Shown: piece by piece, positions 55,291 to 59,831 of the stretch | How positions within the stretch are numbered: the first letter of the stretch is position 1 | Layout: every line of letters begins with the position of its first letter | Assembly: GCA_030446305.1 (NCBI GenBank) | Contig: JASUSA010000006.1 | Location: 1-64,000 of the forward strand | Origin: Clostridiales bacterium | Lineage (GTDB): Bacteria; Bacillota; Clostridia; Peptostreptococcales; Acidaminobacteraceae | Direction: 5' to 3' | DNA: 64,000 bases | Position numbers and translations under genes: made by a program | Notes under the pieces: model-generated | Database searches by the model: none | The model's input: the letters and a program-made list of their open reading frames with translations, nothing else | What the model was told of the DNA's origin: nothing

Positions 55291-57582
55291 GTGGAAACGT
55301 ATATCGGAATCATAGATGAAATTATATACTATAACGATGACAACGGCTATGCCGTTGCGGTATTGACAACAGAAGATGATTCGATCAGCATTAAAGGCAT
55401 TATGCCGTTTATCAATTACGGCGATCAGCTGAAAGTCGTCGGTGAATTGGACGATCACGCTCAATATGGCATGCAGTTAAAAGTGAAATATGTCGAGCAC
55501 GTTAAGCCTACAGATGAAGCATCCCTGCATCGGTACTTGGCGTCGGGCGTCATTAAGGGGATTGGCGAAGCAACGGCTCAGCTGCTCATCGAGGCATTTG
55601 GCAAGGATGTACTGGACGTCATTCAGTATACACCGGAAAAACTGCTTTCGATTTCGGGAATCGGCCCTAAGAAACTCGAGCAGATTATCGAATCGTACCG
55701 AGAACAATATGAACTAAGAGATTTTATCATCTATTTTCAGAATTTGAATTTAAGCGTTGCCAACGCCATGCGCATTTATCGCCAATTGGGCTATGAAGCC
55801 ATGCAGATGGTCGAACGCAATCCATATATACTGGCAGAAACAGTTAGCGGCATTGGTTTTAAAGTAGCTGACCGCATTGCTGAAGGAATGGGCATTGACC
55901 GCCACTCTCCCTATCGCATTAAAGCGGGGATTCAATATGTTCTGCAGCAGTTTGCTTCAGAAGGGCATACCTATATGCCGCTTGATATGTTGGCAAAACG
56001 TGTTGCCATGACCCTTCAGGTGGTCGAGTCGGACGTGGCGATAATCGTTCGTGATGCGGCAATGGGCGGTGCAGTATTTCTGGAAACACAAGACGAGTAT
56101 TCGCAGGGAGACTTGGATTTGGGTATGGTGGATCAAGCGGTGTTGTCAGAAGGAAGTGCTACAGGTGCAGATCATTTGATCAGGGTATTTTTACCGGCTT
56201 ATTACTATGCCGAACAGCATGTCGCAGAAAAACTGTATCAACTGGTATCAGAAGTTCAGCCGCTGACACTGGATAACTTCGATACATTTATTGAACGCTT
56301 TGAACGAGACAAGGGCATCGCTTTAGGTGATAAGCAAAAGCAGGCCATTGAACGTGCTGTTGCCAGCGGTGTTTTTACCATCACAGGCGGGCCCGGAACC
56401 GGCAAGACAACGATTATCAATGCTGTTCTCGAAGCTTATGAATCTCAGGATAAGCGCATAGCACTGATGGCGCCAACAGGACGTGCTGCAAAGCGCATGA
56501 CTGAAGCGACGCGCCGAGAGGCGAAAACGATACATCGGGTACTTGAATTTCAGGGCGAATTTGAATTTGCCAGAAATGAAACCAATCCTATTGAAGCAGA
56601 TGTCATTATTGTCGATGAAATATCCATGGTCGATATCATACTGATGTATCGTCTGCTGGATGCGATCAGCGCCGGGGCACATCTGATACTGGTAGGGGAT
56701 GCAGATCAGCTGCCCTCTGTGGGAGCGGGGCGCGTTTTGGATGATATTCTAAGAAGTGGCCTCATTCCCTTTATTGCGCTGGATGAAATTTACAGGCAAG
56801 CGGATACCTCGCTGATCACCGTGAATGCACATCGCATTAATCATGGTGAAATGCCATTGCTCAATCAGAAAGACAAAGACTTCTTTTTTATTGGCAGATC
56901 AAAACCGGCACTCATATTAAATGAACTGGAAGCGCTGGTTTCAACGCGCCTAAAAGATTATTACGGCCTTTCACCGCTGGAAGACATACAGGTGCTGGCG
57001 CCAATGAAGAATTCGCCAATTGGTGTGACCGCTTTAAATACAATGCTCCAAAAGATTTTAAATCCGGAAACAAAGCAAAAAACACAGCATCAGTTTGGCA
57101 ATATGATGCTGCGAGAAGGCGACAAAGTGATGCAGACAAGGAATAACTACAACCTCGAATGGACGACGGCTGACGGCGAGGAAGGGCAGGGCGTCTTTAA
57201 TGGGGATATCGGTTTTGTTCAAACGATTGACCTCGATACGCGGACAGTGGCTGTCCTCTTTGATGGCGAGCGTGAAGTCGTTTATGATTTTCCCGTTGTG
57301 GATGAGCTGATTCATGCCTATGCGATTACCGTTCACAAGAGTCAGGGCAGTGAATTTAGGGCTGTTCTGATGCCAATGGGTTTTGCGCCGCCAATGCTCA
57401 TGAGCCGAAATATTCTCTATACGGCCATTACGCGTGCAAGGGATCTTGTTATTCTCGTCGGCGACAAGCGTGCCATGGGTGAGATGATTCAACGGGATCA
57501 GGAACTCAATCGCTGTTCCGGCCTTTATGATCGACTGATGCGGCTTAAATTACTTTCAAAAGGGATGAATGGAGATCATTGA
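55291..57582 (+). CDS. recD2: RecD2-type SF1B ATP-dependent DNA helicase
   Basis: N-terminal HhH GVIKGIGEATAQLL; ITGGPGTGKTTIINAVLEAY; AYAITVHKSQGSEFRAV. GTG start after CAGGAGG. Confidence 0.93.
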   Translation: METYIGIIDEIIYYNDDNGYAVAVLTTEDDSISIKGIMPFINYGDQLKVVGELDDHAQYGMQLKVKYVEHVKPTDEASLHRYLASGVIKGIGEATAQLLIEAFGKDVLDVIQYTPEKLLSISGIGPKKLEQIIESYREQYELRDFIIYFQNLNLSVANAMRIYRQLGYEAMQMVERNPYILAETVSGIGFKVADRIAEGMGIDRHSPYRIKAGIQYVLQQFASEGHTYMPLDMLAKRVAMTLQVVESDVAIIVRDAAMGGAVFLETQDEYSQGDLDLGMVDQAVLSEGSATGADHLIRVFLPAYYYAEQHVAEKLYQLVSEVQPLTLDNFDTFIERFERDKGIALGDKQKQAIERAVASGVFTITGGPGTGKTTIINAVLEAYESQDKRIALMAPTGRAAKRMTEATRREAKTIHRVLEFQGEFEFARNETNPIEADVIIVDEISMVDIILMYRLLDAISAGAHLILVGDADQLPSVGAGRVLDDILRSGLIPFIALDEIYRQADTSLITVNAHRINHGEMPLLNQKDKDFFFIGRSKPALILNELEALVSTRLKDYYGLSPLEDIQVLAPMKNSPIGVTALNTMLQKILNPETKQKTQHQFGNMMLREGDKVMQTRNNYNLEWTTADGEEGQGVFNGDIGFVQTIDLDTRTVAVLFDGEREVVYDFPVVDELIHAYAITVHKSQGSEFRAVLMPMGFAPPMLMSRNILYTAITRARDLVILVGDKRAMGEMIQRDQELNRCSGLYDRLMRLKLLSKGMNGDH

Positions 57583-57583
57583 A

Positions 57584-58360
57584 ATGACAATAAAAACACC
57601 TCTGACATTTTCAAAGGCTTCGCGAACTTTGCGAAAGTCGATACTGGACTTGACTTTTCCGATTCATGTACAGTGTGCACTTTGTGAAGATGAGATTAGC
57701 GGCGAATCATACTTTTGCGAATCGTGTATGGCGAAGACGCTGGTGTTGAGTGATCAGATTTGTATGAAATGCGGGAGGCCGCTTGAACTGCCGCGCGAGC
57801 ACTATCGTGCCTATGGCGGCAATTGTTCCATTTGCCAGACGCATTTTTCTTATATAAAGTACCATCGCGCCTTTACACTTTATGAGGGGCGTGCCAAACA
57901 GCTGCTGCTCAGCATCAAGTACAAGGGCAATCTTCAATATACCCCCATTATTGCAGAAGGGATGGCGCATGCGCTCAGACAAAGCCCTTTTGACGGTGCT
58001 GTCGATTTAATTGTACCGGTTCCCATTCACAAGCGCCGGCGATTGTTTCGGGGTTTTAATCAAGCAGAAATTTATGCGAATGCCATGAATGCGCATGATC
58101 CGGAATTGCCGGTTGTAAGTTTACTGAAACGCATAAAACCCACGAAAAAATTAAAAAACCTTGATAAAGAATCTAGGAATAAAATGATGGAGAATGCTAT
58201 AATAATAGAAAAGTCTATGGTGCATTTGGTTGCGGGAAAATCAGTGCTGCTTGTGGACGATATTTTTACAACGGGGGCGACGCTGAATGCGTGTGCTCGT
58301 GTTTTGTACGAAAACGGCGCAAATGCTATTTTTGCAATAACCTTTGCAATGGGGAAATAA
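57584..58360 (+). CDS. ComF family protein
   Basis: Zn-finger CALCEDEIS...CMKCGRPLE and PRTase motif VLLVDDIFTTGATLNACARVL. Confidence 0.92.
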   Translation: MTIKTPLTFSKASRTLRKSILDLTFPIHVQCALCEDEISGESYFCESCMAKTLVLSDQICMKCGRPLELPREHYRAYGGNCSICQTHFSYIKYHRAFTLYEGRAKQLLLSIKYKGNLQYTPIIAEGMAHALRQSPFDGAVDLIVPVPIHKRRRLFRGFNQAEIYANAMNAHDPELPVVSLLKRIKPTKKLKNLDKESRNKMMENAIIIEKSMVHLVAGKSVLLVDDIFTTGATLNACARVLYENGANAIFAITFAMGK

Positions 58361-58425: not shown

Positions 58426-58836
58426 ATGAGTGAAAATAAGCTGAACAGTTTGAGAAATTGTAAGAAGTGCGGAAGATTGTTTTCATCCGTTGATGGCAGT
58501 GCTCTTTGTTCGAGATGTAATGACAACGTCGATGATTCCTTTACCAGAGTTCGGGAATACATTTATGACAACCCAACATCCAGTGTCAAAGACGTTAGCC
58601 ATGGCACCGGCGTTGATGCAGATGCGATCCTTAAATGGATTAGAGAAGGTAAAATAACACTGGCCGATAATTCGAATATCGCTTTTTGTGAACGATGCGG
58701 TTCACCGACAGAGGGATCTCGCTTTTGCGGCAAATGTGTCAGGGAACTGACAAATGGTCTCAAAAAAGGGATACAGGATACCGCTGGGCCTGCCATTAAA
58801 CACCGCGGCATGCATATCAAAGAAGAAAAAGAATAA
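58426..58836 (+). CDS. flagellar operon protein, YvyF/TIGR03826-like
   Basis: NCKKCGRLFSSVDGSALCSRCND ... CERCGSPTEGSRFCGKCVREL; upstream of flgM as in Bacillus. Confidence 0.8.
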   Translation: MSENKLNSLRNCKKCGRLFSSVDGSALCSRCNDNVDDSFTRVREYIYDNPTSSVKDVSHGTGVDADAILKWIREGKITLADNSNIAFCERCGSPTEGSRFCGKCVRELTNGLKKGIQDTAGPAIKHRGMHIKEEKE

Positions 58837-58863
58837 ACTTTTTAAAATTAATACAATTAGTGC

Positions 58864-58890
58864 TAAACTCACCCCCATTTGTGCCGATAG
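58864..58890 (+). promoter_or_regulatory. sigma-D (FliA) promoter of flgM
   Basis: TAAA-15 nt-GCCGATAG. Confidence 0.88.
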
Positions 58891-58925
58891 ATATAGTGAA
58901 CAAAGAAATCGGTCGGATGGGGGTG
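58870..58925 (+). promoter_or_regulatory. inverted repeat enclosing sigma-D promoter elements and sequestering the flgM SD
   Basis: CACCCCCAT (58870-58878) / ATGGGGGTG (58917-58925), nested CCGAT (58884-58888) / ATCGG (58908-58912). Confidence 0.75.
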
Positions 58926-58930
58926 TTTCT

Positions 58931-59200
58931 ATGAGAATTAACGGTAACCCTAATATACAAAGTGTATTAAAGAGTTATGGACAGAATGTCAAGAAAACCG
59001 AAGAAGTTGAAAAAAGCGGCTTTGTAAATGACAAAGTTGAAATTTCCGATGAAGCAAAGGCATATCAGGTTGCCATGCAGGCGGCAAAGGCAGATTCCAG
59101 TGATCGGTCTGAAAAAGTAGCGGCCATTAAAGCGCAAGTAAACGCCGGCACTTACAAAGTCAGCGCAGAAGCATTAGCGGAAAAAATATTAAAAGGCTAA
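58931..59200 (+). CDS. flgM: anti-sigma-28 factor FlgM
   Basis: MRINGNPNIQSVLKSYGQNVKK...DKVEISDEAKAYQVA...VNAGTYKVSAEALAEKILKG. ORF-track start 58754 is too early. Confidence 0.93.
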   Translation: MRINGNPNIQSVLKSYGQNVKKTEEVEKSGFVNDKVEISDEAKAYQVAMQAAKADSSDRSEKVAAIKAQVNAGTYKVSAEALAEKILKG

Positions 59201-59288: not shown

Positions 59289-59783
59289 ATGTCAAAGAGT
59301 ATCGATCAATTGATTTTGACCTTAAATAAAGAGAGCGATATCTATGCTGAAGTATTGGAACTTTCAAAGAAAAAGCGCGAAGCGATTAAAGCCAATGCAT
59401 TAGATGAATTATCCGAAATAACGACTTACGAACAAGGACTCGTTGTGACGCTCTTTAAGCTGGAAGAAATCAGAGAAAAAGTCGTCGATATGGTCATGCG
59501 TGAAAATCATATTGAGACAGCAGAAAATTTAACAGAAATAACAAAGAGCCTGTCCTATGAAGATCGCTCAAAAGTGCTGAACGCTAAAGACAGGCTGATG
59601 GTACTCGTGAAGAATGTAACAGAAGAAAATCGTTTTAATAATCGCGTCTTGGAAGAGCGGCTTCAATTGATCAATCTCAATATCGAACTCATGACACAAA
59701 TTGGCGATGACAGCGGCAAGTACAACCGTAAAGCTGTCAGCGAAGATCAAGAGCATAAATCCATCTTTGACCGACGCGTTTAA
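59289..59783 (+). CDS. flgN: FlgN family flagellar chaperone
   Basis: Helical protein between flgM and flgK. Confidence 0.82.
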   Translation: MSKSIDQLILTLNKESDIYAEVLELSKKKREAIKANALDELSEITTYEQGLVVTLFKLEEIREKVVDMVMRENHIETAENLTEITKSLSYEDRSKVLNAKDRLMVLVKNVTEENRFNNRVLEERLQLINLNIELMTQIGDDSGKYNRKAVSEDQEHKSIFDRRV

Positions 59784-59801: not shown

Positions 59802-59831
59802 AACGCGCGTCATAACCATATGACGCGCGTT
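59802..59831. terminator. strong hairpin between flgN and flgK
   Basis: AACGCGCGTCAT-AACCAT-ATGACGCGCGTT, weak T-tract. Confidence 0.6.

Follow-up and report, generated by a model that had tools for sequence, protein, structure and literature searches.

A sigma-D promoter within a terminator-like hairpin that covers the flgM Shine-Dalgarno sequence in a Fusibacter and related Clostridia

The flgM start region

The window, a stretch of 64,000 nucleotides taken from one contig (JASUSA010000006.1), comes from an organism that is a Fusibacter, with a FlgM 99% identical to that of F. paucivorans. The genes of interest run in the order comFC - yvyF - flgM - flgN - flgK - flgL - DUF6470 - fliW, and those described here, together with the elements of the flgM start region, lie on the forward strand. 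The comFC-like gene (57569–58360, Pfam DZR_2 and Pribosyltran) is a possible source of read-through transcription from upstream, and the open reading frame of the yvyF-like flagellar-operon gene (58426–58836) ends with a stop 27 nt ahead of the -35 element described below. The 89-residue anti-sigma-D factor FlgM (Pfam FlgM PF04316, 68 bits) is encoded at 58931–59200, and flgN (59289–59783, Pfam FlgN) is next in the presumed sigma-D operon. The flgM frame is open upstream across the hairpin as far as 58754 (58754–58930), so that a mechanical ORF caller lengthens the protein to 148 residues; 58931 is the right start because F. paucivorans has a stop in this upstream stretch. Inside the presumed sigma-D operon, between flgN and flgK, there is a terminator-like hairpin of 13 pairs (59802–59831), which is nearly symmetrical, was flagged on the reverse strand and could separate or attenuate flgK expression.

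The promoter ahead of flgM has a -35 element TAAA (58864–58867), a spacer of 15 nt and a -10 element GCCGATAG (58883–58890). Its assignment to sigma-D follows from these elements of the TAAA-N15-GCCGATA type together with a FliA/sigma-D homologue encoded in the same genome (249 bits), and both elements are conserved in relatives. The original prediction had placed this promoter, the ATG at 58931, an inverted repeat CACCCCCAT (58870–58878) / ATGGGGGTG (58917–58925) and a nested pair CCGAT (58884–58888) / ATCGG (58908–58912) around it, and every one of these positions is exact. In the RNA fold the stem extends beyond that repeat to 18 pairs with one bulged U, the outer stem joining CACCCCCAUUUG (58870–58881) to CGGAUGGGGGUG (58914–58925) and the inner stem joining GCCGAU (58883–58888) to AUCGGU (58908–58913). 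In the DNA, the outer 5′ arm CACCCCCATTTG (58870–58881) lies within the promoter spacer and covaries with the right arm, while 58883–58888 of the -10 element doubles as the inner 5′ arm. The inner 3′ arm ATCGGT (58908–58913) is supported by the fold and by pair counts, and the outer 3′ arm CGGATGGGGGTG (58914–58925) by the fold and the arm-swap test. The flgM Shine-Dalgarno sequence (SD) GGGGGTG (58919–58925), identified by its pairing with the 16S tail and by its opening energy, is entirely within the 3′ arm. Spacing to the -10 element puts the predicted sigma-D transcript start at 58896–58898, in the hairpin loop, and the SD-ATG spacer TTTCT (58926–58930) occupies the position of a terminator-like U-tract, weak here and mostly T4–T8 in relatives.

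The segment 58837–58960 folds with a minimum free energy of -30.8 kcal/mol (z -2.8 against dinucleotide shuffles), and RNA beginning at 58896 has a weak fold (-6.7) and no comparable structure. None of 200 shuffles of the window's promoter spacer paired with the right arm as well as the native spacer. There is no Rfam family for the region, and no relevant covariance-model match was obtained up to E = 1.

Accessibility, distribution and covariation

The predicted cost of opening the SD-AUG region is 19–20 kcal/mol for the tested 5′ ends at or upstream of 58870, with a value of 20.3 kcal/mol for the long RNA. It is no more than 4.0 kcal/mol when the RNA begins at 58876 or 58884, and 5.9 kcal/mol at the predicted sigma-D start, where the SD of the short transcript is still partly closed in the predicted ensemble. 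Over the 77 elements collected from relatives the mean opening energy is 16.0 kcal/mol for the long RNA and 5.9 kcal/mol for the short one, and for flgM genes without the hairpin the means are 4.3 and 4.2 kcal/mol, respectively. When the identical truncation was applied to flgM and to other gene starts, the opening energy dropped by at least 5 kcal/mol in 71 of 74 flgM genes and in 2 of 113 other gene starts from the same loci, one of these two being a mis-called start within a flgM hairpin. In none of the window's 28 other genes with an SD does upstream sequence occlude it by at least 5 kcal/mol. Near-consensus sigma-D promoters occur elsewhere in the genome at 23 sites, against 9 in a reversed-pattern control, and none of those with a following gene start hides an SD as at flgM.

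A covariance model built from 14 sequences of the Fusibacter family matches 65 of 397 genomes of the order. Forty-eight further matches were fetched and checked, and 42 of them coincide exactly with the flgM start, the other 6 lying elsewhere; flgM loci missed by the model were also fetched and tested without it. The element is present in 74 of 78 distinct flgM genes that lie behind a yvyF homologue, only four such loci, all of family f9, being without it, and 74 of the 77 distinct hairpin elements are directly behind a yvyF homologue. Where flgM is preceded by a fliY/fliN-type or another gene, the element is mostly absent. The presence of the element follows the neighboring upstream gene, and since the f9 loci and most fliY/fliN-linked flgM genes do without it, flagellar control does not require it. 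Among relatives the length of the loop is variable. Outside the order, a class-wide sample gave one clear case (L209) among 59 flgM genes for which a sigma-D promoter could be recognised, and a phylum-wide sample of 399 genomes gave only three covariance-model matches besides that of the window itself, none of them at flgM.

When all 20 family members were aligned with MAFFT, left arms were misplaced wherever the spacing of the promoter was different, and for this reason the statistics rest on a subset of 14 sequences (A2) and on alignment-free arm swaps; the covariance-model alignment (A3) was left out of the counts, as it contains reverse-strand matches to the near-palindrome. In the MAFFT alignment of the 14 sequences, 95.1% of the cells are paired as compared with 40–53% when the partner columns are slid, and 10 cells are changed on both sides, a number reached by none of 500 shuffles. 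Arm swaps gave -15.9 kcal/mol for native and -11.1 kcal/mol for swapped combinations (z -16.7), a contrast that is somewhat inflated by the scoring of positives on predicted SD pairing. Choosing loci by the upstream gene, independently of pairing, yields nearly the same set, and the pairing statistics are therefore not explained by the selection of loci whose arms pair. Within families f1, f2, f3 and f11 none of 5000 permutations was as good as the native arrangement, and in f4, f5 and f7 the test is limited by the small size of the families. On a tree of FlgM and YvyF the five most variable positions show 18, 14, 11, 9 and 7 changes of Watson-Crick pair type, and G-U pairs make up 16% of all pairs, a share that favors RNA and counts against a DNA operator. 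Pair counts, arm swaps and the tree agree that the arms are conserved and covary in related genomes, the comparison on which the original prediction was to be checked. The arrangement seen in the window is confirmed as real, and is stronger than had first been claimed.

The U-tract and alternative readings

At least five of the last six bases before the ATG are T in 70 of the 77 elements and in 2 of 116 other genes from the same loci, and the longest T-run before the ATG is 2–8 in hairpin-bearing and 0–3 in hairpin-less flgM. The window and F. paucivorans both retain the complete stem, and their U-tract amounts to no more than UUUCU. The stem is stable and GC-rich as in an intrinsic terminator, but the inner loop of 19 nt exceeds the short loop (3–8 nt) of that class, and a terminator pattern scan does not flag the flgM hairpin. 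In the loci compared, the upstream stop codon is usually 2–19 nt ahead of the -35 element, so that another terminator hardly fits between the genes. Since a U-tract right after the stem is unneeded for occlusion of the SD but is needed by an intrinsic terminator, the hairpin looks terminator-like too, and from its sequence the same hairpin may well serve as an intrinsic terminator, weakly so in this window; with a U-tract of just UUUCU, the translational part may dominate in Fusibacter. The original prediction described a switch in which the long RNA hides the SD and the sigma-D RNA leaves it open. Conservation, covariation and opening energies strongly support this logic, which is nevertheless incomplete, having missed the terminator layer.

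If that switch were the whole of the matter, the hairpin would only hide the SD and the T-rich spacer would be incidental. The opening energies of long and short RNA are what such a device predicts, as is the placement of the SD within the stem in 77 of 77 elements, although the set was constructed that way, and the window and F. paucivorans combine a U-poor spacer (UUUCU) with an intact stem. The T-run, however, goes with the hairpin: 70 of 77 hairpin-bearing flgM genes have it, whereas hairpin-less flgM and other genes do not, and occlusion of the SD does not require it, which makes a purely translational device rather unlikely. The converse reading, an ordinary intrinsic terminator of comF-yvyF packed onto the promoter and SD of the next gene, with occlusion of the SD as a by-product, is also unlikely, if perhaps the more tenable. 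It is consistent with the U-tract coming after the stem, with the scant room left for any other terminator by the nearby upstream stop, and with terminator/SD overlaps lacking a sigma-D promoter at a few other genes (L121, L255). It accords less well with a loop that, nested stem included, is on the large side for a terminator, with an SD lying wholly in the stem, and with the Fusibacter elements, where the U-tract is weak and the stem strong.

Two further readings are answered by the covariation. A long, near-perfect inverted repeat over a promoter could be an operator at which a DNA-binding regulator acts on the flgM promoter, but the arms vary in sequence while their complementarity is kept, and a binding site would conserve sequence; given also the 16% of G-U pairs and the variable loop, this reading was rejected and is very improbable. 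A G-rich SD will match any C-rich stretch, and the hairpin might then reflect chance pairing with a C-rich spacer. The covariation extends beyond the SD core, however, none of the 200 spacer shuffles did as well, and the element recurs across the order, so that chance complementarity is refuted by the relatives and has a negligible probability.

Related arrangements and proposed role

Hairpins of similar design were seen at other genes. At L089 (G032:C248:40681-40754) a sigma-D-like promoter lies within an SD-covering hairpin with T5 before the ATG of a FlgG/FlhO-like rod gene that comes after a degV-like gene, and by this geometry the design is not confined to flgM. In other Bacillota, L254 (G726:C14) has a plausible sigma-A promoter (TTGAAA-N17-TACACT) in a terminator-like hairpin at a lipoprotein-like gene, and L253 (G702:C4) has a sigma-D-like promoter (TAAA..TTCGATAT) in such a hairpin at an unknown gene, the 3′ arm in these two cases being the SD or lying just ahead of the ATG. 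The design of a promoter in a terminator over an SD may accordingly be used by L089, L254 and L253 as well. At L115 (G034:C99:17470-17559) a hairpin of -34.5 kcal/mol with GCCGATGA and T7 lies over the SD of a long protein. At L085, which encodes an apparent homologue in the window's genome, there is a sigma-D-like promoter without an SD-covering hairpin. The start of a spoIIR-like gene (L097, G121:C61:32180-32257) has its SD in a hairpin of -24.9 kcal/mol followed by T5-ATG, and after a DEAD-box helicase gene (L121, G259:C43:4804-4872) there is a terminator-like hairpin of -33.9 kcal/mol whose 3′ arm overlaps the SD of a holin-like gene, without a sigma-D promoter.

Several known systems share parts of the arrangement. 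In Salmonella, flgM is transcribed by early read-through (class 2) and from a sigma-28 promoter (class 3), the same two sources as considered here, but both transcripts make FlgM, whereas the read-through RNA here is predicted to be silent. The transposase genes of IS10 and IS50 are protected from external promoters in that read-through RNA from outside folds over the start and their own transcript does not; these are mobile elements, without an anti-sigma circuit. Intrinsic (Rho-independent) terminators share the GC-rich stem and, in most relatives, the immediate U-tract, and differ in that the flgM hairpin has a large loop containing the transcript start, the promoter -10 in its inner stem, a 3′ arm that doubles as the SD and, in the window, a weak U-tract. 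The closest likeness is to the late genes e, soc, 49 and I-TevI of phage T4 (also segB, and mobE of phage Aeh1), where early read-through RNA is described as hiding the SD and late-promoter RNA as freeing it (PMC3014915, PMC2988022). As described there, the late-sigma promoter falls within the sequence coding for the 5′ arm, and short transcripts, which are without that arm, are translated. At flgM, likewise, the 3′ arm covers the SD and/or start codon, the pairing is conserved in relatives, and the promoter is placed in or over the 5′ arm so that, from its position, the predicted start and the opening energy, the short transcript is without the arm. The T4 case concerns phage genes and the late sigma gp55, whereas flgM is chromosomal and codes for an anti-sigma factor, an inhibitor of the very sigma factor that gives rise to the permissive transcript, and the available text of the two papers reports no conserved U-tract or terminator component (PMC3014915, PMC2988022). 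A paper on E. coli flgM concerns the sRNAs OmrA/B (PMC7549644). The arrangement at flgM was not found in the literature searched, although an earlier remark on a terminator in the B. subtilis flgM operon may exist. The statement in the original prediction that no description was known accordingly stands for flgM itself, but not for the geometry, since an identical promoter-in-hairpin layout is documented for the T4 late genes in what these papers cover (PMC3014915, PMC2988022). What is new is the chromosomal anti-sigma setting, the merger with a terminator and the order-wide covariation.

We consider it probable that the segment 58870–58930 acts as a read-through insulator that does not stand in the way of sigma-D, with transcripts from upstream being terminated and/or translationally silenced. 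RNA from comFC-yvyF would carry both arms and form the long hairpin and, because the 3′ arm of that hairpin is the SD, initiation of flgM translation would be blocked on it. Just ahead of the ATG the hairpin and U-tract would end transcription in most relatives, and probably do so weakly in the window as well. Sigma-D polymerase would initiate in the loop, and its transcript would therefore be without the 5′ arm, with the SD open and no terminator. FlgM would then be made essentially only when sigma-D is active, in dependence on the very sigma factor that it inhibits, and would act as an autogenous brake that neither fires early nor responds to comF-yvyF expression arising for other reasons. 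We infer that read-through RNA exists, that its translation and/or transcription is blocked and that timing is affected; delayed negative feedback is a reasonable expectation from this, and the selected benefit would be either the timing of FlgM or its insulation from comF-yvyF expression. There is perhaps an even chance that these ~60 bp, combining a sigma-D promoter, the intrinsic terminator of the upstream operon and the flgM SD, constitute an order-wide and previously undescribed cis element of flagellated Clostridia.

If the proposed role holds, an anti-sigma gene could be kept beside unrelated transcription units without early leakage by DNA geometry alone, and the mechanism known from T4 would also operate in a conserved regulatory circuit of the chromosome, of which dozens of variants occur in nature. 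A promoter inside a terminator hairpin that covers the SD would also provide a searchable signature for other insulated genes.
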